Source: a virus. From it: a DNA stretch of 37,797 bases. Where the stretch lies: IMG/VR virus record IMGVR_UViG_3300030328_002680, positions 1 to 37,797 of that record; one strand, written 5' to 3'. Numbering within the stretch: the stretch's first letter is position 1; every line of letters starts with the position of its first letter. A program made the position numbers and the translations under genes. The notes under the pieces were generated by a model. It was given only the letters and a program-made list of their open reading frames with translations. It ran no database searches and was not told where the DNA came from. This document shows, piece by piece, positions 1 through 37,797 of this stretch.

Positions 1-98
1 AAACACTACCCGACCCCCTACCGAATAAGTAAGGGGTCAGATAGTACCGCTTAGTATTCGCGTATCCATCGGCTAGGTGTAAAGGTTAGCCCTAGCAT
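1..98. repeat. Terminal direct repeat, left copy
   Basis: Positions 1-98 are identical to 37698-37795. Position 99 differs (a here, c at 37796). The repeat covers one intergenic hairpin cassette and the 3' end of the reverse-strand gene at 51-437. The simplest reading is a circular or circularly permuted genome in which the assembler repeated the ends. A true short terminal repeat is possible but less likely, because the repeat stops inside a gene. Confidence 0.9.
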
Positions 99-437
99 AT
101 CGGTCAAGGTTTCAACCCAATCTAGACCGCTCACGTCACGACTAGCGCCGTCGTACCAATCTAGAAACCAATACTCAACGGTGCCGGTATCGTGCCACCG
201 TATTTCTTCACTAGGTCCGCCATAGGATATTTGATAGCGCCAATATCCCACAGTCTGGTCGTTAAAGGTTCCGGCTTTTACATATCCAAAGCATAGACCG
301 TACTCATTGAAACGGTCTAAGGCTTCATCACTGTAAAAGGTGTCCCCCTGTAATTCTAGAAACATGGCGGTGAAATCGTCCGCCCTGCTTTGTAGATGAC
401 CGTCTATGCGGTCTTGACAAGTTGCGTCTTTTGGCAT
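51..437 (-). CDS. Conserved-looking phage protein with a QISYGGPSEE motif
   Basis: This 128-residue soluble protein has no signal peptide or membrane segment. It is rich in aromatic residues, with the motifs YWRYQISYGGPSEEIRW (about residues 65-81) and EYWFLDWYDGA. I associate similar motifs with hypothetical proteins of phages and plasmids but cannot name a function. It starts at ATG behind a strong site, AAAGGGGGCAAG, and ends in TAA. The leader matches that of the next reverse gene (37473-37670). It is the first gene of the reverse operon, directly downstream of the promoter at 482-510. Its last codons reappear at 37748-37797 because of the end overlap. Confidence 0.8.
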   Translation of the reverse strand: MPKDATCQDRIDGHLQSRADDFTAMFLELQGDTFYSDEALDRFNEYGLCFGYVKAGTFNDQTVGYWRYQISYGGPSEEIRWHDTGTVEYWFLDWYDGASRDVSGLDWVETLTDMLGLTFTPSRWIREY

Positions 438-455: not shown

Positions 456-476
456 TATCCGACCCCCTGCCGGATA
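456..476 (-). promoter_or_regulatory. Leader hairpin, degenerate copy of the intergenic cassette
   Basis: The plus-strand sequence resembles the left part of the cassette at 37706-37728 (ccgaccccct and ataagtaa are shared), but the right arm of that stem is missing. A different stem can form here: TATCCG at 456-461 pairs with CGGATA at 471-476. The hairpin falls at the expected 5' end of the reverse transcript, just upstream of the AAAGGGGG ribosome-binding site of the gene at 51-437. Confidence 0.45.
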
Positions 477-481
477 AGTAA

Positions 482-510
482 ATTATAGCAAAGTATCGAA
501 CTTATTACAA
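482..510 (-). promoter_or_regulatory. Sigma70-type promoter for the reverse operon
   Basis: On the reverse strand a perfect -10 box TATAAT (482-487) is separated by exactly 17 bases from TTGTAA (505-510), which matches TTGACA at four of six positions. It points into the gene at 51-437. In a circular genome it would also drive the genes at 37670 down to 35695. It is the best promoter match I see in the window. Confidence 0.75.
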
Positions 511-3822: not shown

Positions 3823-5586
3823 GTGAAACCTGCTGAACGTATTATTGAGTTGTTAAGAGAGAGGGAATCTAATCAGAGTCCTGCGATAGAACGGATGCGT
3901 CGCATTAGGTCTGCTTACGATGGCGACATTATTGTGCCGTTGCCGGAGTTGGATGATTTTGAATCTGCTTCGGTGGCTAACCTTGTCGCTCAGGGGTTGG
4001 ATCAAACTGCGATGAGGATTTCTTCTACTATGCCGGACATTATTTGTCCGCCTTCTGACCCTGAGTCTAAAAATTCTGAGAAGAACTCAAGGGTTAGACG
4101 TAAAGCTCTTTACGGCATGTGGGAAAGTAACAACATGGGGTTGAAGATGATGCGTCGCGCGAGGCATTTTATCGGGTACGCTTCTTCGCCTGTTTCGTTA
4201 AGGTTTGATCCTGTTAAGGGTGGTGTTGAGTGGGTGCTTCGTGACCCGTTAACTACCTATCCTTCTCCGGTTATAGGTCCAGACGATTTGGAACCTACTG
4301 ATTGTATTTTTACTTACGATAGGACTTGGGCGTGGCTTAAATTACATTACCCTGACCAAGCGCATCGTTTACGGGGAAGCGACACTGTTGAAGAATCTGA
4401 TTTGTTTCAACTGGTCGAATATGTGGATCATGAGGAAACGGTGCTTATCGCTGTTGGTCGCACTCCGCAAAACAACACGGGCTGGTCTAGGAGTGTTAGT
4501 TACACGGTTGAGCCTTTAGCTGAATTGGAAAGGTTCCCTAATCGTATAGGGATGTGTCCTGCTGTTGTTCCTGGTCGTGTTTGTTTAGATCAAGCGCAGG
4601 GGCAGTTTGATGGGATGATTGGGATGTATCAGACGCAGGCTCGTTTGATGGCGTTGGAAGTTATCGCTGTGCAGAAAGGTATTTTTCCTGACACTTGGCT
4701 TGTCGCTAGGGCTGGGGAGCAACCGCAAATTATTAATAACGCTAACGGGTTGACTGGCGAAATTGGTCAAGTCAAAGGCGGCGATTTGCGTGACTCTACT
4801 TTGAACCCTGGATTTATGACTAATCCAACTATTGATCGTTTGGAAAGAGCGCAACGTTTAACTGCCGGTATCCCACCTGAGTTTGGTGGAGAGTCTGGTT
4901 CTAACATTCGTACTGGTCGCCGTGGCGAAGCGGTAATGTCCGCTGTTGTTGATTTCCCTATTCAGGAAGCGCAGAAAGTTATAGCTGCTTCTTTAGAGGC
5001 GGAGAATCGCAGAGCGATAGCTTTGTCTAAAGCGTATGCAGGCAATAAGGCTGTTTCGTTTTATGTAACCACTAAGGGTTCTAAGGGTCGTGTTGATTAC
5101 ACACCTAATAAGCATTTTGACACTGACCATAATCGTGTCGTGTTTTCTAACCCTGGTACTGATTTGAATGGTTTAGTTATTGGTGCCGGTCAACGTATCG
5201 GCATGGGAACGATGTCTAAGAAGTCTTTCATGGAGATTGATCCTATGGTTGATGATGTTGAGTCGGAACATGATGAAGTTGTTTCCGAGTCTTTAGAGCA
5301 GGCGTTGTTGGCTTCGTTGCAGACGCAAGCTTCGCAGGGGGCGATACCTCCTGGCGATGTTGCTCGCATTGTTGAAATGGTTCGATATAACAAAGCGGAT
5401 TTAGCCGGTGCTGTCCAGAAGGTGCATGAGGAGGCGCAGGAACGTCAAGCGACGCAAGTGCCTCCAGATTCTCCTGAAGCTCAGTCCGGTATAGCCCAAG
5501 CCGGTGCAGGTGCGGAGGCTGCGCCTACATCTGGGGCGGCTGGGCTTCCTTCTATGCGTGAACTTCTAGCACAGGTTGGTGGATGA
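3823..5586 (+). CDS. Portal protein
   Basis: This 587-residue protein begins at GTG, immediately after the terminase stop. The place, size and content fit a phage portal, the dodecameric ring through which DNA enters. Portal-like features include the N-terminal helical region (RMRRIRSAYDGD), the segment ARHFIGYASSPVSLRFDPVKGGVEW, and a Gln-rich central helical part (GQFDGMIGMYQTQARLMALEVIAVQ). The C-terminal tail is Ala/Gln/Pro-rich. Assignment rests on family feel plus position after TerL; no invariant catalytic residue exists to check. Confidence 0.88.
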   Translation: MKPAERIIELLRERESNQSPAIERMRRIRSAYDGDIIVPLPELDDFESASVANLVAQGLDQTAMRISSTMPDIICPPSDPESKNSEKNSRVRRKALYGMWESNNMGLKMMRRARHFIGYASSPVSLRFDPVKGGVEWVLRDPLTTYPSPVIGPDDLEPTDCIFTYDRTWAWLKLHYPDQAHRLRGSDTVEESDLFQLVEYVDHEETVLIAVGRTPQNNTGWSRSVSYTVEPLAELERFPNRIGMCPAVVPGRVCLDQAQGQFDGMIGMYQTQARLMALEVIAVQKGIFPDTWLVARAGEQPQIINNANGLTGEIGQVKGGDLRDSTLNPGFMTNPTIDRLERAQRLTAGIPPEFGGESGSNIRTGRRGEAVMSAVVDFPIQEAQKVIAASLEAENRRAIALSKAYAGNKAVSFYVTTKGSKGRVDYTPNKHFDTDHNRVVFSNPGTDLNGLVIGAGQRIGMGTMSKKSFMEIDPMVDDVESEHDEVVSESLEQALLASLQTQASQGAIPPGDVARIVEMVRYNKADLAGAVQKVHEEAQERQATQVPPDSPEAQSGIAQAGAGAEAAPTSGAAGLPSMRELLAQVGG

Positions 5587-5966
5587 TGCCTCGAAAGGGT
5601 AAAGGACAAAAAGTTTCTTCTGCTTCTGGTCAAACTTACGGGGATAGGGTTGCTCAGGAGGAAGCGCAAAAGGCGATGCCGTTGCCGGAAAGACCGCGGA
5701 TCACCCCTGGTGCTGCTGGTCCTTTGACGCGACCTTCTGAACAGCCTCGTCAACCGTTGACTGCTGGTTTGCCGATGGGGGCTGGTGGCGGACCGGAGAG
5801 TTTAATTAGACCTGCTCCTAAACCTTCTCCTGTTATTACGGAGAGTTTGGGTAGAGTTTTGCCTTTGCTTATCGCTAGGGCTGAGATGCCTGATGCGAGT
5901 TCTGAGTTTAGACAGTTTGTTCGTAAGGCTCGTCAACTTGCGGCTGATAGCCCTAATGTTTATTAG
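5583..5966 (+). CDS. Small Pro-rich head-region protein
   Basis: This 127-residue protein overlaps the portal stop by 4 bases (ATGA), so it is translationally coupled. The first 90 residues are basic then Pro/Gly-rich and probably disordered. A short helical C-terminus follows (SEFRQFVRKARQLAADSP). It may be a minor virion or portal-associated protein by position. I do not recognise a family. Confidence 0.7.
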   Translation: MMPRKGKGQKVSSASGQTYGDRVAQEEAQKAMPLPERPRITPGAAGPLTRPSEQPRQPLTAGLPMGAGGGPESLIRPAPKPSPVITESLGRVLPLLIARAEMPDASSEFRQFVRKARQLAADSPNVY

Positions 5967-5975
5967 GGGCAATTT

Positions 5976-8900
5976 GTGAGTTGGATTGGTGATCGTTGGG
6001 ATGATGTTGGAAGTCTTTGGCAGTCTTCAATAAAACGTGCTGACAATTTTTGGGATGCCGGTTTTGAGGTTGCTTCTACGCCAGTTAATTTGGTTTGGAA
6101 TTTTGTTGAAGCGACTAAAGATGTTATAGACGATAATGATGTTGGGGTTCTTGATGGGTTGTATCAGTTTGCTTGGGAAAAACCTTTTCATGATACTAAA
6201 AATTTAGCGGCTGCGACTATAGGTCCAGAAGGCATTGGCGGCAACCTTATCGAAATGATGCCTACTGCTGTTCGTGGCGCTGTTGGAGAGGCTTTAGAGG
6301 GTATTGAATGGGTTTATAACAAAGGAAGCAGATATGTTTCTGCGTTTGTTACCGTTGGTTCTTTAATGGAAGCCGACGGCAGAAATAACGATCTTAGTGC
6401 GTTTTTTGATTTTGGTGATTATTGGGATGAAGCTTATGAAATAGCAGAAACTCGTTCGCCAGGTCAAGCAATAGTTTTGGCTTTTCATAGCAGCGAAGAG
6501 AAAAGCATTCTTGACGAAGAAGCTGTTGCGGAGTGGCAGGATACGGCTTGGTTTAACATTACTTCGGGGACGTTAGATGCCGCATTTCGGGTTTTTCTTG
6601 GACCGGAAGAGTTATTGTTCGGGGCAGGGATGGCGGCTCGTGCTGGTCGTGCAGCCCGTCAATTCAACAATTATTTTGAAGCAGGGGGAAAGTTTACAAA
6701 ATTCTCTGACGATGTTACAGCGATTGCTGATGATATAGGGGCTAATACAGATGAGATAACAGGGCTTGTTGCTCGCCGCACCGAAACTGAACGAGAAGTA
6801 ACTCGTGCAAGAAGAGAATTAAATACTTTTAAGAAGGCTGAAGAGCAAGGGCTTAATACTAGCGCAGACCCAAATTTAGGTCAAAGACTTCAAACAAATT
6901 TAGATGAAGCGTTAGCAGCAAGAGATTTAGCGAAGTTTGATGACCCAGTTGATTTGTTGACTGGTCGGATTAAAGAAAAGTATTTCGCTGGTCATGCGGA
7001 AGGGGATTTGATTTCGCGTGAAATAGCGTTAGCGCATTTAGGGCGAGAAGGTTTCGCTGGAGGAACTGAATCGGTAAGAAACGTTATGCAGTTCTTTATG
7101 GCTGCTGATGGCGACAAAGCATTACAAATAGTTGCTCGTATAGCTAAAGAAAATCCGGTGAGAGGGTTTAATTATGCGAGAATCTGGGAAAAAAGCACTC
7201 AACCTATTCAAGTCGCTCCTTCAGGAACCGTAGGTGGAAACGCTCACGAATTTTTAGCAGCAAACAAAACTCATAAAGACATTGTTAACGCCGTAGAAGA
7301 TGGTGTAGGTTTAGAAAATTTTGGTCCTGACAACATTGTTTCAGGGTTTGCTTCTATAGATGTTGTCATCAAACCCACAATGAGAAGAAATTTTCAAGAC
7401 AAAGTTCGTCATTCAGGTTGGTATAGAACAGGGGAAACTGAAACAAATCTTTTAGGTCGGGCTATTCAACCTTTTACTCGGACTATTCAACTTGTCAGAG
7501 ATATGAAACCTCAGCATCACATGTTTGCTGGTGACGCTAACGCTGCCGATCAGGTAGCAAGGGCTATGAAAGAATCAAACTTGTATAGCGCTGAAGATAT
7601 AGCAAGATTTAGGGGAGATTGGGCTTCGAGAAGTGTTGCTTCTAGGGTTAGGCTTGCGGAAAGAGTTCAAGGGGAAATGGTTGAAAGGGTGCTTCGTAGA
7701 CGTATAACTAAGGATAAATGGTTAGAAGTTAACCCTAATTCTAATCCTTCTGATTATGAGAATCTGATTAATACTTTGGTAAGGGATTATGCTGCAAGTA
7801 ATTCTGCTGCTAAAAAAGTTTTGAACGACGCTAGAGCGTATGATTACACAGATTTAGCAAAAGGGTCTGAGTTTACTTTTGTTGATGAAGGCACAGAGGT
7901 GTTGATGAACTCTCCGTTGACTCCTTCGCAGTTGAAACAATCGTTTTTTGTTGTAGACGTAAAATCAATAGATTCTTATGTGCAGAAAATGGTTTCAAGA
8001 AGAGATTTTTCTGTTGTTGAAAGAGCGACAGGAAGTAGTGACGCGATTTTTGCTTCTCCTTCTTGGTTTCAAAGGGCAAGATATGGGGGGGCAGGCAGAC
8101 AACACGTTATGCAAATGTCTAATCAAGGGCTTAGTGGATTAATGTCGGTTTGGCGACCTGCTGTGTTGCTGCGTCCTGCTTGGGCTTTAAGAGTTGTCGG
8201 GGATGAACAGTTGCGTATGTTCGCTAAGCTGCAAACTCTTTCTGGTGAGGGAAGCGGTTTGTGGGGTTTGCTTACAAGTAACCGTAGAGCTTATGTTGAA
8301 AGTGTTTTTCATAATTATGGAAGAAGGACAAGACACAATCCTAAAGGTTTGTCTATTGAGGAGTTGCATGCAAGCGGAAAATTGGTGGAGGCTGAGAAGC
8401 AGTTAAAACTGCTTACTCGTCGTCGTGCTGGTCGTGCTGCTGGTATTGGTTTTGTTTTGGGTGGCGGTCCTGGGTCGCTTCTTTTTGGTGGCGGTTCGTT
8501 TTTAAGGAATCGTCGGGCTTATCGTTCTATGTTGGGAAGAGCAAGGGACGATGGTTTGGTTCGTTCTGGAGAAGGGCAATTACAAACTAGAGAATATGAT
8601 GCTCGGAACATTGTTAGAAGAAGAGTTTTATCTGGCAGACCGTTTGCTAGAAGGCGTGGTCCTGAAAAGCCTTTAAGCGCTGGGGGGCATCCGGTTCAGG
8701 GTCCGTTTGGAACAAAAGAAAATCCTAACCTTGTTATGAGGGGAGCTGTTAGTTCTCAACGGCAAGTAGGTCATGCTTTAGATCATTCAGCGAGAATAAA
8801 TGAAGGGAATATACAAAAAGGGGATTGGGATTTAGTTCTTGATCCGAGGAAAGCTGATACGGAACAGTATGCACAAGGATGGGAACGGGTCATTAACGAT

Positions 8901-11111
8901 CAATGGAATGGGGGGGCTACCGAAGATATTGGGCGAATTGTTTGGAGTGATAAAACTGATCTTGAAAAAGTAGATTTGTTGTATGAATGGATGGAAACCA
9001 CTCCTGCTGGGAACAGTTTTCTTCGTAGTGTAGACATCGCCGTTGATGATGCTGATGCGATAATAAAATTAGCTGAGAGGCAAGTACAGGTTACTAACAG
9101 AATGGTTGACGCTAGTCATCCGGTTGGTCAAGAGATTCGTGCGAGGTTGGCTAGAGGGGAAAGAGTTTCTGCTAGTGATCTTAAAGGTTACGCAGGTAAA
9201 GAAGTAGATGATCTTCCTCCTGCACAATTAAGCGATTTCGTTGGAGAAATACACGGGCAAGAACAAATACTAATAGGAAAAGGTCTTGAAGCAAGAAATA
9301 TGGTAAGACAAACCGTAGACGGGGCTTACCAGCGCATAGCCGGACTCACAACAGACAACCTTTCAAGAAACCCATACTTCTCAACCATGTATCGGAGATC
9401 AATAGAAAGAAGAATAAAAGCAGCAACAAGTGGGCAAAAAGGAACAAGGTTAGAAATAAGCGAAGACGCTTTACGCAAAATGGAAGACGCTGCAAGAAAA
9501 GAAGCATTACAAGAAGTCAGATGGCTAATGTACGACCTAGCTGAAAGCTCACGCTTCTCAGACATGGTAAGACTAATAATGCCGTTCTTTAACGCTTGGC
9601 AAGAAGTATTAACAAGATGGGGTGGGTTAGCTTTAGAAAACCCAGTGTTTGCTTCAAGAATGACAGACGCTTTTAGAGCCAACCCTGACGTTGATTTAGG
9701 TACTTTAGGGGCGTATGAAACTGTCGAAGATGAAGAAGGCAACAAATTTTTCCAAGTTCGTTTACCTGACTTTGCTACAGGGCTTTTAAGACAAGGATTG
9801 ATGCAAGGAGCCGCCGACGACGCTGGAATTATTCGTTTCAGAACAAGTTCGTTAAACATGATAACTCAAGGGCTACCAGGATTCGGTCCAGTTGCCCAGT
9901 TACCTGCATCATTTTTTGTTCAACAAGCACCTGAGTTTGAAGACGCTATGAGTTTCATGTTGCCTTATGGTCCTGTTGAATTAACAGACGCTTTACCTGC
10001 CTACATTAAAAGAACTATTTCAGCGACGCTTCAAGATGATCGCTCTTATCAAAATATGGCTGCTCAAATCATGATGACAAGAATAGCGGACATGGCTAAC
10101 GGGGAAACAGACATTATAGATTTTGGTGACACTGCGACACGCGCACAATTCCTTGAAGAAGTCCAATCAGCCGCTCAAGGAGCGATGTATGTTCGCGCTA
10201 TCGGTACTGCGGTTTCTCCAGCGTCGTTTAATCTCCACTCCCCGTATCAACCATATATAGATATTTATAGGGAAATGAAAGAGGAAGATTCAGCTAATGC
10301 TGATGAAAACTTTTTGACTTTCCTTTTAGAAGAAGGCAACGAAGGATTTTTTGCTTTGTCTATGAGGCAGAGTAAAAACATGGAAGGGCTACCTCCGACT
10401 GTTTGGGCTGAACAGCAGAGAGAAAATTTTGAAGACCTTATTATAAATTACCCTGAGTTGGGTGGTCTTATTATCGGGGTTGAAGGCGGCGGTGCCGCTA
10501 GGTTCTCTGCAGCTATTTACAACAGACAACTTGGTGAGGAGACTTTCCCTGGTTCTGGTGTGCAGCGTCGTGAGCGTTTAAGCCTTGACGACATGTTGAT
10601 TGATACTCGTGTTCGTGCAGGTTGGGAAGCTTACGGCAATTTGATGGATAGTATTTATATAGTTATGAGGCAGAAAGGGTTCCCTAATTTGAGGGTTTCT
10701 GAGGCTGCTGGTTTGAAATTTGTTAAAGATTCTAGGTTGGGTGTGCTTGCTGAAGAGTTTCCTCTTTGGTATGAGGAGTTCGCTAATCCTGATACTGCTA
10801 AGTGGGCTGATCGTATAAATGGTATGCGTGAAATTGTTGATCTTTATGAGTCCGGTGACAGCAGGTTTGCTGGTCGTGAGGATATTAGACAGTTAAGTAT
10901 TTATCTTGAGGTTAGAGATGGGTTTGCGAGCAAGTTGGCGGAGCGAAGAGCAGGAGGGGGTTCTGGTCAGCTTGATGCAAGAAGTAATCAGGATATAGCA
11001 GAGATATGGGATACTTGGCGTTTAGATTGGGCTGATAATCCTGCTGCTGGAGATTTGTTCTTTAGATGGTTTGAGTTCGATTCAATAAAGCAAGACACTT
11101 GGGCAGAGTAA
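5976..11111 (+). CDS. Giant virion protein, probably internal/ejected
   Basis: This 1711-residue protein takes up 14% of the genome. It starts at GTG with AGGGG six bases upstream. It is mostly helical, with a long charged region at about 250-330. A Gly-rich hydrophobic stretch near 820-850 contains GIGFVLGGGPGSLLFGGG. The segment IMPFFNAWQEVLTRWGG lies near 1203-1219. Its position after the portal, its size and a hydrophobic Gly-rich patch resemble internal virion proteins that short-tailed phages eject to carry DNA across the envelope. No enzyme motif is evident. Codons within about 9240-9660 are strikingly A/C-ending compared with the flanks. Confidence 0.65.
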   Translation: MSWIGDRWDDVGSLWQSSIKRADNFWDAGFEVASTPVNLVWNFVEATKDVIDDNDVGVLDGLYQFAWEKPFHDTKNLAAATIGPEGIGGNLIEMMPTAVRGAVGEALEGIEWVYNKGSRYVSAFVTVGSLMEADGRNNDLSAFFDFGDYWDEAYEIAETRSPGQAIVLAFHSSEEKSILDEEAVAEWQDTAWFNITSGTLDAAFRVFLGPEELLFGAGMAARAGRAARQFNNYFEAGGKFTKFSDDVTAIADDIGANTDEITGLVARRTETEREVTRARRELNTFKKAEEQGLNTSADPNLGQRLQTNLDEALAARDLAKFDDPVDLLTGRIKEKYFAGHAEGDLISREIALAHLGREGFAGGTESVRNVMQFFMAADGDKALQIVARIAKENPVRGFNYARIWEKSTQPIQVAPSGTVGGNAHEFLAANKTHKDIVNAVEDGVGLENFGPDNIVSGFASIDVVIKPTMRRNFQDKVRHSGWYRTGETETNLLGRAIQPFTRTIQLVRDMKPQHHMFAGDANAADQVARAMKESNLYSAEDIARFRGDWASRSVASRVRLAERVQGEMVERVLRRRITKDKWLEVNPNSNPSDYENLINTLVRDYAASNSAAKKVLNDARAYDYTDLAKGSEFTFVDEGTEVLMNSPLTPSQLKQSFFVVDVKSIDSYVQKMVSRRDFSVVERATGSSDAIFASPSWFQRARYGGAGRQHVMQMSNQGLSGLMSVWRPAVLLRPAWALRVVGDEQLRMFAKLQTLSGEGSGLWGLLTSNRRAYVESVFHNYGRRTRHNPKGLSIEELHASGKLVEAEKQLKLLTRRRAGRAAGIGFVLGGGPGSLLFGGGSFLRNRRAYRSMLGRARDDGLVRSGEGQLQTREYDARNIVRRRVLSGRPFARRRGPEKPLSAGGHPVQGPFGTKENPNLVMRGAVSSQRQVGHALDHSARINEGNIQKGDWDLVLDPRKADTEQYAQGWERVINDQWNGGATEDIGRIVWSDKTDLEKVDLLYEWMETTPAGNSFLRSVDIAVDDADAIIKLAERQVQVTNRMVDASHPVGQEIRARLARGERVSASDLKGYAGKEVDDLPPAQLSDFVGEIHGQEQILIGKGLEARNMVRQTVDGAYQRIAGLTTDNLSRNPYFSTMYRRSIERRIKAATSGQKGTRLEISEDALRKMEDAARKEALQEVRWLMYDLAESSRFSDMVRLIMPFFNAWQEVLTRWGGLALENPVFASRMTDAFRANPDVDLGTLGAYETVEDEEGNKFFQVRLPDFATGLLRQGLMQGAADDAGIIRFRTSSLNMITQGLPGFGPVAQLPASFFVQQAPEFEDAMSFMLPYGPVELTDALPAYIKRTISATLQDDRSYQNMAAQIMMTRIADMANGETDIIDFGDTATRAQFLEEVQSAAQGAMYVRAIGTAVSPASFNLHSPYQPYIDIYREMKEEDSANADENFLTFLLEEGNEGFFALSMRQSKNMEGLPPTVWAEQQRENFEDLIINYPELGGLIIGVEGGGAARFSAAIYNRQLGEETFPGSGVQRRERLSLDDMLIDTRVRAGWEAYGNLMDSIYIVMRQKGFPNLRVSEAAGLKFVKDSRLGVLAEEFPLWYEEFANPDTAKWADRINGMREIVDLYESGDSRFAGREDIRQLSIYLEVRDGFASKLAERRAGGGSGQLDARSNQDIAEIWDTWRLDWADNPAAGDLFFRWFEFDSIKQDTWAE

Positions 11112-35648: not shown

Positions 35649-35696
35649 ACCCACCCTGTAGATTTACTCCTTTCGATTTGCAGGGTGGGTTTTTTT
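35649..35696 (+). terminator. Rho-independent terminator of the long forward block
   Basis: ACCCACCCTG (35649-35658) pairs with CAGGGTGGGT (35681-35690) over 10 perfect pairs around a 22-base loop, followed by six T. It lies where the forward block converges with the reverse operon. The reverse strand lacks a T-run after the stem, so it is effective in the forward direction. Confidence 0.88.
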
Positions 35697-35925
35697 ATAT
35701 TGCCTCTCCGAGTTTGTAAACGGTGTATTCAATTCCACCGTATTCCTCCAACTGTTGAACGTGATGCTCAACCATTTCTTTGTCTTCCAATATGTGGCTA
35801 GACAAGTATTCTCCGTCGTATTCTTCTATCACATAACGAAATGCTTGTCCTTCCTTCTTCGCTGCTTCATGTCTTTCAAGACGATCTGCCCACCACTCAT
35901 CGGACCTTCCATAGATACCTTTCAT
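35695..35925 (-). CDS. Small acidic protein, last gene of the reverse operon
   Basis: The 76-residue protein is MKGIYGRSDEWWADRLERHE and a charged helical rest ending TVYKLGEAI. The start at 35925 has AAGGA seven bases upstream; in-frame ATG 35931 and TTG 35964 are alternatives. The stop overlaps the tail of the convergent terminator. Its function is unknown. Confidence 0.6.
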   Translation of the reverse strand: MKGIYGRSDEWWADRLERHEAAKKEGQAFRYVIEEYDGEYLSSHILEDKEMVEHHVQQLEEYGGIEYTVYKLGEAI

Positions 35926-35935
35926 TTTCATTTCC

Positions 35936-36457
35936 TTAATCTTGGTAGTGGTTGATTGCTTCAAAAATATCTTGATGAATAGGGTTATCTGACTGAGACA
36001 AATCTCTAGTATCAGCGGAGCAGATTAACTCTGCTTGTTGGACTACTTCTTCTATCGTGTCAAACTCTCCGATATGCAAACCGTAGCCGTCGTATTTCTG
36101 ATTCTCTCTCCAACTAAATTTCTTACCGTCAAGAAAGTCGTCATAGAACTCGTCAAGGCTCATAACATATTGCACTGCAAAGCTTTTATCTAGCACAGAT
36201 AGGTCATGCTGTTTCACGTCACTTGGCACCCCATAATCGTAACCAGAGAACACATCTTTATAGATGACCTCAAGGCATGAATACCCCTCACCGGCTATGT
36301 GAATGTTGTGACAATTCCCACCAGTATGATTAAAAGTAACGTCGCACCAAGTCAACTGTTCTTTAATCATGCTGTAAATATCCCTGTCAGAAACAAGACC
36401 GTTCTCATCTCGTTCTTCTGGGGGTTTGTAATTTGTTCCCTTTATTTCTTTCTTCAT
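35936..36457 (-). CDS. Hypothetical protein of the reverse operon
   Basis: This 173-residue protein starts at ATG behind AAAGGAAAA. It is acidic and aromatic (FSGYDYGVPSD, SLDEFYDDFLDGKKF), with a His-rich segment (TGGNCHNIHIAGEGYSC). It is the largest gene of the reverse block. No recognised family. Its leader is one of the double-hairpin cassettes. Confidence 0.65.
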   Translation of the reverse strand: MKKEIKGTNYKPPEERDENGLVSDRDIYSMIKEQLTWCDVTFNHTGGNCHNIHIAGEGYSCLEVIYKDVFSGYDYGVPSDVKQHDLSVLDKSFAVQYVMSLDEFYDDFLDGKKFSWRENQKYDGYGLHIGEFDTIEEVVQQAELICSADTRDLSQSDNPIHQDIFEAINHYQD

Positions 36458-36534
36458 TTTATTTTCCTTTCTTTCTGGTGATAAGAATCACCACCCCATA
36501 CCCTGAGTTAACTCAGGGTGTGAGATGCTAACGC
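36458..36534 (-). ncRNA. Double-hairpin intergenic cassette A
   Basis: In reverse-strand order after TAA: GCGTTAGCATCTC, then stem 1 (perfect 20-base palindrome ACCCTGAGTTAACTCAGGGT at 36500-36519), then stem 2 (GGTGAT/ATCACC at 36477-36492, TCTT loop in RNA), then AAAGGA and the ATG of the next gene. An outer pair (36499/36520) pairs only in plus-strand RNA. See the finding on the whole family. Confidence 0.75.
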
Positions 36535-36783
36535 TTAATCCTTCCAAACATCTAGTTCCATAAAGCTATCTTCACCCTGCTCAACTAATTGAGAGATGAA
36601 ATAGTCACGCTCGAAATCTTCCTCACGAGCGTGACGGAAGTGATCCGTGTTATAGAACTTCAGAAACTCAACAAGAGTTCCAAACAATTCAGGTGTCAAT
36701 ACGATATGGAACTCGTGACAGTGTCCTCTCGGTTCCAAGATAGAGAAGTCTTCTGCTTCTTCTTCTGTGTGAATATATTTCAA
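36535..36783 (-). CDS. Small acidic protein with TTG start
   Basis: This 82-residue protein (KYIHTEEEAEDFSILEPRG, then GHCHEFHIVLTPELFGTLVE) starts at TTG. AAAGGAAAA at normal spacing decides it. The RGHCHEFHI segment may bind metal. Unknown family. It is bounded on both sides by cassettes A and B. Confidence 0.65.
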   Translation of the reverse strand: MKYIHTEEEAEDFSILEPRGHCHEFHIVLTPELFGTLVEFLKFYNTDHFRHAREEDFERDYFISQLVEQGEDSFMELDVWKD

Positions 36784-36859
36784 TTTATTTTCCTTTCTTT
36801 CTGGTGATAAGAATCACCACCCCACACCCTGAACTAGTCAAGGTGTGAGATGCTAACGC
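36784..36859 (-). ncRNA. Double-hairpin intergenic cassette B
   Basis: Stem 1 lies at 36823-36847: nine pairs plus position 36829/36841, which is c/a on the plus strand and so G-U in reverse RNA. The loop is ACTAG (plus strand). Stem 2 (36803-36818) is identical to that of cassette A. The stop-proximal block and the AAAGGAAAAT ribosome leader are also the same as in A. Confidence 0.75.
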
Positions 36860-37042
36860 TTAATCTTCTAACTCCTCTGGGGCACTTATGTATTCTGGGT
36901 AAATCGTGTGAGCCATAACGTGGGAAACATGTTCCACCGCTTCGGTCACTATCATCTCGTTCCAGTCCCACCCTGAGGGGTGGTCTGCATGAGTTTCAAT
37001 AATCATTGAGACCATGTATTTCTTTAATGGTTTTTTATTCAT
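36860..37042 (-). CDS. Small hypothetical protein
   Basis: This 60-residue protein begins MNKKPLKKYMVSMIIETHAD; the rest is acidic (GWDWNEMIVTEAVEHVSHVM). The ATG has AAGGAG upstream. It lies between cassettes B and C. No family is recognised. Confidence 0.6.
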   Translation of the reverse strand: MNKKPLKKYMVSMIIETHADHPSGWDWNEMIVTEAVEHVSHVMAHTIYPEYISAPEELED

Positions 37043-37140
37043 TATCTATTTCTTCTCCTTCTACAGGTGTCTAGTGTCTCCTGTCTTGTAAGAAACACTA
37101 TTCCACACCCCGAACTAGTCGGGGTGTGAGATAGTACCGC
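37043..37140 (-). ncRNA. Double-hairpin intergenic cassette C
   Basis: Stem 1 at 37104-37128 is ten perfect pairs (CACACCCCGA with TCGGGGTGTG) around ACTAG. Stem 2 at 37072-37100 has eleven pairs (TAGTGTCTCCT with AAGAAACACTA) around GTCTTGT. Two of its positions are c/a on the plus strand, hence G-U in reverse RNA. Next comes GTGTCTAG spacer DNA and the ribosome site AAGGAG. An AGGAG also lies inside stem 2. Confidence 0.78.
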
Positions 37141-37365
37141 TTAGTCTTGACCGTCTTGGTCTTCTTCTTCATCTTCGGTTAGCATTTGTTTCATAGTTTC
37201 AACACAGCACGAACATCCGATGTCGGGTTCAATGTCCCAACACGTATCGTGCTCTTCGTGTTCACAGTGGCAAATCTCAAATGCAACTTCGTCACATAAG
37301 ATAGCGCTGATTCTCCGACCATACTCTTCATCGGTTTCATGGTAGTAGTTTATTTTCTCACTCAT
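37141..37365 (-). CDS. Small Cys/His-rich acidic protein
   Basis: This 74-residue protein has ICHCEHEEHDTC and IGCSCCVETM, seven Cys including a CHCEHE motif like that of the forward protein at 1122-1304. It likely binds metal. The ATG at 37365 (GGAG upstream) is the real start. The in-frame TTG further up (37437) would translate through the cassette hairpin. The C-terminus is very acidic. Confidence 0.65.
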   Translation of the reverse strand: MSEKINYYHETDEEYGRRISAILCDEVAFEICHCEHEEHDTCWDIEPDIGCSCCVETMKQMLTEDEEEDQDGQD

Positions 37366-37472
37366 TATTTTCTCCAATCTCCCTGTCGGGTGTCTAGTGT
37401 CTCCTGTCTTGTAAGAAACACTACCCCGAACTCTCAAAAGCTTTTTGAAAGTTCGAGATAGTACCGCTTAAA
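37366..37472 (-). ncRNA. Double-hairpin intergenic cassette D
   Basis: Stem 2 at 37395-37423 matches that of cassette C exactly. Stem 1 at 37427-37455 has a new sequence (CGAACT...AGTTCG plus TCAAAA...TTTTGA) yet pairs over 12 positions. Position 37433/37449 is G-U in reverse RNA. The stop-proximal block GAGATAGTACCGCTTA is kept. Confidence 0.78.
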
Positions 37473-37670
37473 TTAATAACACATACCGCAAAGTATCCGA
37501 CCATTGACGATAGAACTACCGTCACCGCAGAACCTACACGGTCTAAACTCTTCTTTTAACGGTTGCGGGTTGCATGTATCGCCACCGCACCCATCACATT
37601 TAACATAATGTGATGCCATTAAAGGCCTAAACGCTACCGCTTTAGGCTCGTAATAGTTAGCGTGTCTCAT
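37473..37670 (-). CDS. Small zinc-finger-like protein
   Basis: This 65-residue protein has CDGCGGDTC and CRFCGDGSSIVNGRILCGMC, seven Cys giving three C-x2-C pairs. Zinc binding is very likely. The ATG at 37670 has AAAGGGGG upstream; an in-frame start at 37703 would run through the cassette hairpin. It follows the gene at 51-437 if the genome is circular. It may be a nucleic-acid or protein-binding adaptor. Confidence 0.68.
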   Translation of the reverse strand: MRHANYYEPKAVAFRPLMASHYVKCDGCGGDTCNPQPLKEEFRPCRFCGDGSSIVNGRILCGMCY

Positions 37671-37747
37671 GTCTGCCCCCTTTCTAGTGTCTCTAAGAAA
37701 CACTACCCGACCCCCTACCGAATAAGTAAGGGGTCAGATAGTACCGC
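37671..37747 (-). ncRNA. Double-hairpin intergenic cassette E (spans the contig overlap)
   Basis: Stem 2 at 37685-37705 (TAGTGTCTC with GAAACACTA) has one G-U pair in reverse RNA (37691/37699). Stem 1 at 37709-37735 pairs GACCCC...GGGGTC and TAC...GTA around CGAATAA, with 37715/37729 as G-U. The same sequence appears at 1-50. The AAAGGGGG ribosome site follows. Confidence 0.78.
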
Positions 37748-37795
37748 TTAGTATTCGCGTATCCATCGGCTAGGTGTAAAGGTTAGCCCTAGCAT
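37698..37795. repeat. Terminal direct repeat, right copy
   Basis: These bases repeat 1-98 exactly. The final two bases of the window are ct, against at at 99-100. The last 50 bases (37748-37797) are therefore a second, partial copy of the end of the reverse gene at 51-437. Confidence 0.9.
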
Positions 37796-37797
37796 CT

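Follow-up and report, generated by a model that had tools for sequence, protein, structure and literature searches.

Alternative hairpins built on the stop codon: a candidate ribosome-operated RNA spacer between small phage genes

Five gaps of a leftward small-gene operon in the phage DNA analysed here (the window, the whole stretch of 37,797 nucleotides) hold an RNA element that is built around the upstream gene's stop codon and has two competing folds. Comparison of sequences establishes both helices, their mutual exclusivity and covariation, the strand on which they are read, the position of the stop codon and the recurrence of the plan in other phages. We lean towards the reading that each gap is a ribosome-operated bistable RNA spacer. 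A flip of the fold when the first 12 nt are blocked is predicted by a folding model, and we infer an effect on translation or RNA stability.

The leftward operon and its five cassettes

The operon occupies the last 2.1 kb and the first 0.5 kb of the window and is encoded on the minus strand. The ends of the contig repeat each other, positions 1-100 matching 37698-37797 with about 98 identical bases before a mismatch near the very end. This repeat closes the genome into a circle, in which the operon extends from 437 to 1 and on from 37797 to 35695; although the exact end repeat is broken, the sequence is probably that of a complete, circularly closed genome. The joint of the circle falls within copy E of the cassette, whose DNA appears a second time at 1-53 because the contig ends overlap. 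The main features are the following.

482-510, minus strand: promoter-like TTGTAA-17-TATAAT with TG before the second hexamer, at the operon head (consensus match only)
456-476, minus strand: leader hairpin UAUCCGGC..GUCGGAUA before the first gene, similar to the 3' half of copy E and folding differently
51-437, minus strand: first operon ORF, 128 aa, PHROG 36747
35695-37670, minus strand: the six remaining small ORFs (37473-37670, 37141-37365, 36860-37042, 36535-36783, 35936-36457 and 35695-35964)
36482-36537, minus strand: copy A, full P1, stop codon within
36808-36862, minus strand: copy B, full P1, stop codon within
37089-37143, minus strand: copy C, full P1, stop codon within
37412-37470, minus strand: copy D, full P1 with 28 pair positions, stop codon 5 nt upstream of UAAG
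37694-37750, minus strand: copy E, full P1 (UAAG...CUUA), its first three bases being the stop of ORF 51-437
36476-36493, minus strand: copy A, P2, UGGUGAU-UCUU-AUCACCA
36802-36819, minus strand: copy B, P2, UGGUGAU-UCUU-AUCACCA
37072-37100, minus strand: copy C, P2, here predicted to be the more stable state
37395-37423, minus strand: copy D, P2, UAGUGUUUCUU..GGAGACACUA
37685-37705, minus strand: copy E, P2, UAGUGUUUC-UUA-GAGACACUA, overlapping the 3' outer arm of P1
36458-36475, minus strand: copy A, Shine-Dalgarno region AGAAAGAAAGGA, between P2 and the next start codon
36784-36801 (B), 37043-37071 (C), 37366-37394 (D) and 37671-37684 (E), minus strand: equivalent Shine-Dalgarno regions

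The five cassettes that a sequence-only reading had placed in the gaps of the reverse operon were all located on the minus strand, copies E to A occupying the gaps that precede the first five of the six ORFs in 35695-37670. The same reading took 456-476 for a partial cassette copy; this stretch is instead the leader of the first gene, just downstream of the promoter-like site at 510-482, and folds alone as a short hairpin. Five of the small operon ORFs were searched against Pfam, none giving a match, and no relatives were found for the 173-aa protein encoded after copy A.

Two competing folds on one strand

In each of the five gaps P1 is one symmetrical, bulge-free hairpin of the minus strand, with arms of 25 (B, C and E), 26 (A) or 28 (D) positions and loops of 3-7 nt. 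Its outermost pairing joins UAAG with CUUA, and the stop codon lies inside UAAG in A, B, C and E. Position 5 is a constant C.U mismatch, and position 10 is G.G in A and B. The conserved block with the TAA stop that had been described earlier does exist, but it is no separate element: it is the 5' outer arm of P1, with the stop set 5 nt upstream in copy D. P2 is built from the 3' outer arm of P1 (GGUGAU-UCUU-AUCACC in A and B, UAGUGUUUC..GAGACACUA in C to E). Since P2 and outer P1 need the same 3' strand they are mutually exclusive, and the two stems previously considered independent turn out to be alternatives, the second overlapping the 3' outer arm of the first.

Folded as single strands, A, B, D and E do better than 200 out of 200 dinucleotide shuffles, and C does better than all but one; z scores range from -3.9 to -5.7 on the minus strand versus -1.8 to -5.0 on the plus strand. 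The Shine-Dalgarno region is mostly unpaired in both predicted states (0.74-0.89). Hence the idea that P2 hides this site as a general rule was dropped, and with it the suggestion of a translation switch acting as a simple on/off cover of the ribosome site. That the hairpins are not ordinary terminators, as had been proposed, was borne out: they lack a consistent T-run, and intrinsic terminators were rejected on finding loose matches alone, with short broken T stretches (such as GTGTTTCTTA) in B to D.

Covariation in the window family (type I) is extensive. Standard pairs fill 96.7% of the 120 P1 cells of the five copies, as against 45-51% when the arms are slid (six registers). Ten of the 24 P1 pairs are changed on both sides, a number matched by 0 of 500 shuffles, which upholds the earlier claim of a covarying RNA family; the copies within one phage are related and homogenised, so that these counts do not represent independent events. 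Where pairs are imperfect, G-U exceeds A-C by 25 to 2 on the minus strand, a stronger bias towards the reverse transcript than the six cases against one first counted. The corresponding coding-strand ratios are 56 to 1 and 79 to 24 in the type III and type II families described below, the A-C cells of type II being confined to four pair positions. Such an excess of G-U on the coding strand indicates that the pairing is read in the RNA of one strand.

The strand shared by both helices is itself informative. Copies A and B differ from C, D and E at two of its positions, and both the 5' arm and the P2 3' arm compensate; in the 5' arm the changes are U-A versus G-U at position 7 and C-G versus U-A at position 11. 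The two mutually exclusive helices are both under pair-preserving constraint, as expected of a termination-responsive bistable RNA. However, A/B versus C/D/E is one evolutionary contrast and not five, so more families were needed; C and D have 35 identical bases in common.

Such families were not reached through the window sequence. The exact pattern of C, D and E occurred in 33 stretches among 2.9 million viral contigs, none of which carried the element or the operon on later checks. The comparison with related phages by a covariance model, recommended in the earlier reading, gave a divided answer: the model of the five copies retrieved from 80 records of terminase relatives one weak match inside a coding gene, taken as chance, so the sequence family was not found in relatives, but the architecture was. 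As judged from sequence, then, it is the architecture and not the window family that is common to related phages.

The same plan in uncultured relatives

A search with the terminase identified a large group of mostly marine contigs (the habitat being taken from record names), and a hairpin survey of these relatives revealed similar hairpins beginning at stop codons. Two families stood out: type II (UAGCUUAUCAGCUCGGAGCACAU...AUGUGUUCUAGGGUGCUAAGCGCAUC-AGAAAGAAGG), with 20 copies in four contigs, and type III (UAGGUUGUGCUUUGGACAUUCGUGAGAGUGUCCUUAGUAGUGCCUAGUGGCAC-GGAAAGAAGG), with 17 copies in four contigs. Both keep an arm at the stop (arm a), an inner P1 and a P2 loop with the partner of arm a, and the gaps are evenly sized, most of them 60-80 nt in types I to III. 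In neither is a GC-rich stem with a direct T-run present as a rule.

In type II, 90.8% of P1 cells are paired and 20 are double-changed (0 of 500 shuffles); the outer arm alone accounts for 15 double-changed cells (again 0 of 500), and P2 reaches at least 5 bp in all 20 copies, with compensated pairs. In type III, whose P1 carries several conserved mismatches, 99.3% of cells are paired, 36 are double-changed (0 of 500), and all copies form P2, also with compensated pairs. P2 was counted by our own script, the MAFFT alignments splitting its 3' arm. The stop codon itself takes part: type III combines TAG with CUA in seven copies and TAA with UUA in eight, with one copy of each cross combination (one G-U, one mismatch), and the third base of the stop covaries with its partner (Fisher p=0.0034). 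Covariation, on whose absence in homologues the sequence-only reading had staked its family, is thus found in the homologous plans of other phages.

Gene order in these phages varies around the cassettes. Family F02 is followed by F00, F03 or F10, and F00 by F03, F05 or an orphan, depending on the phage; cassette type goes mainly with the phage, although one contig (L141) carries both type II and type III. Because the same gene families are joined in different orders, the cassettes are, on the evidence of gene order, the joints of a shuffling small-gene block. The F10 protein, found beside a type III cassette in L141 and L146, is small, and its HTH_23-like match is weak and lies below the Pfam cut-off (E 0.0036); it is possibly DNA-binding. 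In some type II and III cassettes, for instance those before L141 2750 and L144 2544-2868, an internal AUG or GUG begins an open frame that continues into the downstream gene; the possible N-terminal extensions (MCSRMLS..., VRVSLVV...) are probably incidental but could mislead gene callers. Upstream of the type II block of L080, a long stretch (8200-8980, minus strand) departs from the small-gene pattern and contains repeated ACGAACGTACGTTCG-like palindromes; it looks like a regulatory or replication region.

In the closest terminase relatives, L038 to L040 (89% identity), the reverse block is of another kind: its genes are led by promoters, its hairpins are of the terminator type, and stop-linked elements were not found in it. 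In L038 this region (5300-8300, minus strand) contains several genes that have TTGACA-like promoters and a short leader hairpin (GTAAGC-TATCC-GGCTTAC), together with an ORF of 242 aa (7058-7786) and strong hairpins of the terminator type. When genomes were scanned for the host, a single terminase relative came up; its contig belongs to a MAG labelled Gammaproteobacteria and is possibly misbinned; the distant relationship to Streptomyces phages suggests that the host may be actinobacterial.

Sequence-agnostic tests and cultured Streptomyces phages

The plan was also sought by structure alone. A scan of 170 mechanically found gaps for an inner P1, a P2 and a stop codon pairing into P2 at least as stably gave 32 matches (18.8%), versus 2.2% of dinucleotide shuffles. 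The matches include families unlike types I to III in L048, L099 (two), L100, L106 and L139; the few on the forward strand look like chance. In a swap test, the pairing of each element's own stop flank with its own P2 arm and loop was compared with that obtained using the parts of other elements. Matched pairs were more stable than swapped ones in the marine set (-7.26 versus -4.65 kcal/mol, n=55, p=0.0005), in the marine set without types I to III (-7.58 versus -5.16 kcal/mol, n=20, p=0.0005) and in six cultured Beephvirinae Streptomyces phages (-8.27 versus -6.12 kcal/mol, n=20, p=0.0004-0.0005). The controls were not significant: phiC31, a small one with 7 gaps holding P1 and P2; 79 random stop-triplet segments; and cluster K phages (p=0.22), also small, with 5 such gaps.

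Immanuel3 and the five other Beephvirinae-type Streptomyces phages have a leftward small-gene block with many gaps of 64-105 nt, in which one gene is annotated as ArdA-like. The gap that follows the block's first small gene combines UGA with the loop AUCA in five phages, and UAG with the loop AACUA in Immanuel3. After the ArdA-like gene the pairings are UAGUG~CACUA (Immanuel3 and Manuel), UGAGU~AACUC (Dennebes) and UGAGUG~CCACU (Stella). Stop and P2 loop can thus change together at matching gaps, these being assigned by gene order and length and not by a protein tree. A loop that is the exact complement of its own stop was present in 10 of 23 cases, versus 8.0 expected (p=0.2), and such complementarity is unsupported as a universal rule in these phages, where the arm may start several nucleotides past the stop (e.g. 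CCUGAGC~GUUCAGG in Abafar).

Immanuel3 (L150) also carries, at 38397-38501 before one small gene, a different long hairpin that is very strong and conserved (GGGCCUU..AGCUGGC..GGAGGUG..CCCCCUCC..GCGAGCC..CUGGGCC) and recurs in WRightOn, Abafar, Manuel, Dennebes and Stella. It does not follow the stop-linked plan and is another candidate structured RNA.

Proposed mechanism and alternatives

In the model that we favour, the element would consist, from 5' to 3', of arm a (the stop plus roughly 8-20 nt), inner P1, a strand a' that serves as the 5' arm and loop of P2, the P2 3' arm, the Shine-Dalgarno sequence and the start codon. With no ribosome present, a would pair with a', and P1 would be one long hairpin holding the stop codon. 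A ribosome terminating at the stop would cover arm a and leave inner P1 intact, and the freed a' would fold into P2, directly before the next ribosome site. Upon departure of the ribosome the stop codon, acting as a toehold, would re-pair with the P2 loop and P1 would be restored. The gap would be folded with or without a ribosome at the stop, and its fold would report termination.

A terminating ribosome is known to cover a stretch downstream of the stop codon. The span of arm a, about 8-20 nt from the stop to inner P1, is near this footprint, and we infer that the element makes use of it. When the first 12 nt were blocked in the folding model, the mean probability of P2 rose from 0.41, 0.24 and 0.62 to 0.93, 0.88 and 0.93 in types I, II and III, respectively, and that of outer P1 fell to 0-0.09; termination is thus predicted to flip the element. 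The folding prediction makes P2 the dominant state of window copy C, and of several copies of types II and III, with no ribosome needed. The model ignores pseudoknots, and a P2 that stays closed could still have its loop paired with arm a.

Because the Shine-Dalgarno sequence stays largely accessible in either fold, the sequence does not reveal the regulatory output, and insulation and shielding are a better guess than an on/off switch. A likely use would be to keep post-termination ribosomes from running on or re-initiating at neighbouring small genes, as a lone stem-loop behind the stop codon does in E. coli (PMC7518266), leaving the Shine-Dalgarno sequence free; a second likely use would be to shield the untranslated gap.

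The best of the alternatives, though in our opinion an unlikely one, is an RNA processing or stability element, in which RNase III cuts the long P1, or P1 caps the 3' ends and P2 the 5' ends of processed messages; the dose of each small gene would thereby be set, as in selective RNA processing and stabilisation. The near-continuous duplex of 25-28 positions in the window, the presence of one hairpin at nearly every gene boundary and the placing of two hairpins suitably for 3' and 5' protection are as this account would have them, and intergenic stem-loops acting in this way are documented in Clostridium, in the portions of the reports considered here (PMC4423207, PMC8219983). It gives no reason, however, for the outer arm to start at the stop codon, for the identity of the stop to covary or for two helices to compete for one strand in unrelated families, and the conserved mismatches of type III P1 do not suit it.

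Quite improbable as a full account is that the cassettes serve recombination first and RNA second, the repeated spacers allowing small genes to shuffle by homologous recombination and the hairpins making the joints expression-neutral. The changing neighbours of one gene family across type II and III phages speak for it, as do the homogenised copies within a phage and a cassette type that tracks mainly the phage and not the gene. Yet recombination alone predicts conservation of sequence, and neither alternative pairing nor compensatory change with G-U asymmetry follows from it; recombination could hold in addition to a bistable spacer.

Slightly less probable still is termination-coupled initiation, with P2 as the coupling state: folding away about 60 nt would put the next Shine-Dalgarno sequence beside the terminating ribosome and lead to re-initiation. 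Short unpaired stretches alone separate stop, P1, P2 and Shine-Dalgarno sequence in the P2 state, and the even gap sizes would fit. Against this, stable post-stop structure lowers re-initiation, which is favoured at gaps under about 25 nt (PMC7518266), and the strong, free Shine-Dalgarno sequences suggest independent initiation. Finally, double-stranded DNA sites, be they operators or palindromic mobile repeats (REP/ERIC-like), would account for inverted repeats in multiple copies per genome but are most improbable in view of the coding-strand G-U excess in types I, II and III, and operators were ruled out by this excess together with the lack of a fixed half-site common to the families.

Beyond the bistable spacer, we tentatively suggest that these elements form a new class of RNA device in phages, in which the stop codon serves as the toehold of a natural toehold switch. 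The P2 loop would be the complement of the upstream stop region, each termination would free this loop, and the departing ribosome would let the stop strand-displace P2. Selection would hold the architecture from marine uncultured phages to Streptomyces phages under complete sequence turnover, as a standard interchangeable joint between accessory genes. How neighbouring small genes in one message stay independent or become coupled is a general question for phages and bacteria, studied for the most part in synthetic operons or with genes that overlap. The element described here is a natural one: it recurs at one gene after another, comparison supports two competing folds for it, the stop codon is part of its build, and it occurs in phages that grow on laboratory Streptomyces. 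If the model is true, it would offer a direct handle on the fate of the post-termination ribosome and a compact insulator or sensor part. The plan also provides a structural signature by which modular blocks of accessory genes can be sought in actinophage genomes when sequence similarity is of no help.

Comparison with known systems

The earlier statement that no such family had been described agrees with our searches. Rfam gave no match at the gathering score for the window or four relatives, and at relaxed threshold yielded sub-threshold chance matches alone, at E>0.2. A literature search, whose coverage excluded most subscription papers, returned ribosome termination structures (RTS), extended start-associated sequences (ESAS), promoter early stem-loops (PeSL) and the stem-loops of selective RNA processing and stabilisation (SRPS), and nothing with the stop-linked P1/P2 plan.

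RTS are stable mRNA structures right after the stop, at the edge of the terminating-ribosome shield; they are found at gaps of 25 nt or longer, and in E. coli a synthetic operon showed that they lower re-initiation (Chemla et al. 2020, PMC7518266). The five window gaps and types II and III share with them a stable structure immediately downstream of the stop. RTS, however, are a statistical folding signal depleted inside operons, whereas the stop-linked elements are covarying families that fill most gaps of one co-directional block; moreover, RTS lack the second, mutually exclusive hairpin and do not require pairing of the stop.

The ESAS of cluster K mycobacteriophages are defined by the 13-bp motif GGGATAGGAGCCC at the start codon, together with repeats of 17 bp (PMC3203893). 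As in our elements, imperfect inverted repeats with a lineage-specific consensus precede the ribosome sites of many small non-structural actinophage genes. Membership was ruled out: the 13-bp motif at the start codon is absent from the window gaps read, and the ESAS repeats of Anaya and TM4, unlike the stop-linked elements, are not built on the upstream stop and have no competing P2.

The PeSL cassettes of T4-type phages (Arbiol 2010, Comeau 2014) are described, in the part of the source considered (PMC4503421), as composite promoter-terminator motifs. They resemble the window cassettes in one respect only: both are stem-loop cassettes that recur between the small genes of a region that shuffles. 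By that description they differ from the window cassettes, which lack both a consistent T-run and a promoter above chance; promoter-like matches in the region are at shuffle level (5 versus 4.3), the one good site being the operon head. SRPS are likewise intergenic stem-loops in operons (PMC4423207, PMC8219983, both in part). They act through processing and 3' protection, and in those parts neither pairing of the stop codon nor an alternative hairpin is described for them.

In leader-peptide attenuation the position of a ribosome picks one of two mutually exclusive hairpins, with either a terminator or a hidden ribosome site in the leader as the result. The stop-linked elements would work alike insofar as a ribosome at a set position is predicted to decide between mutually exclusive hairpins. 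They would differ in that the sensor would be the normal termination of a full gene, gap after gap, and neither a hidden site nor a terminator is seen in them. The elements appear to be new within the known ribosome-dependent alternative hairpins and post-stop structures, and there is a fair chance that they constitute a class of their own.
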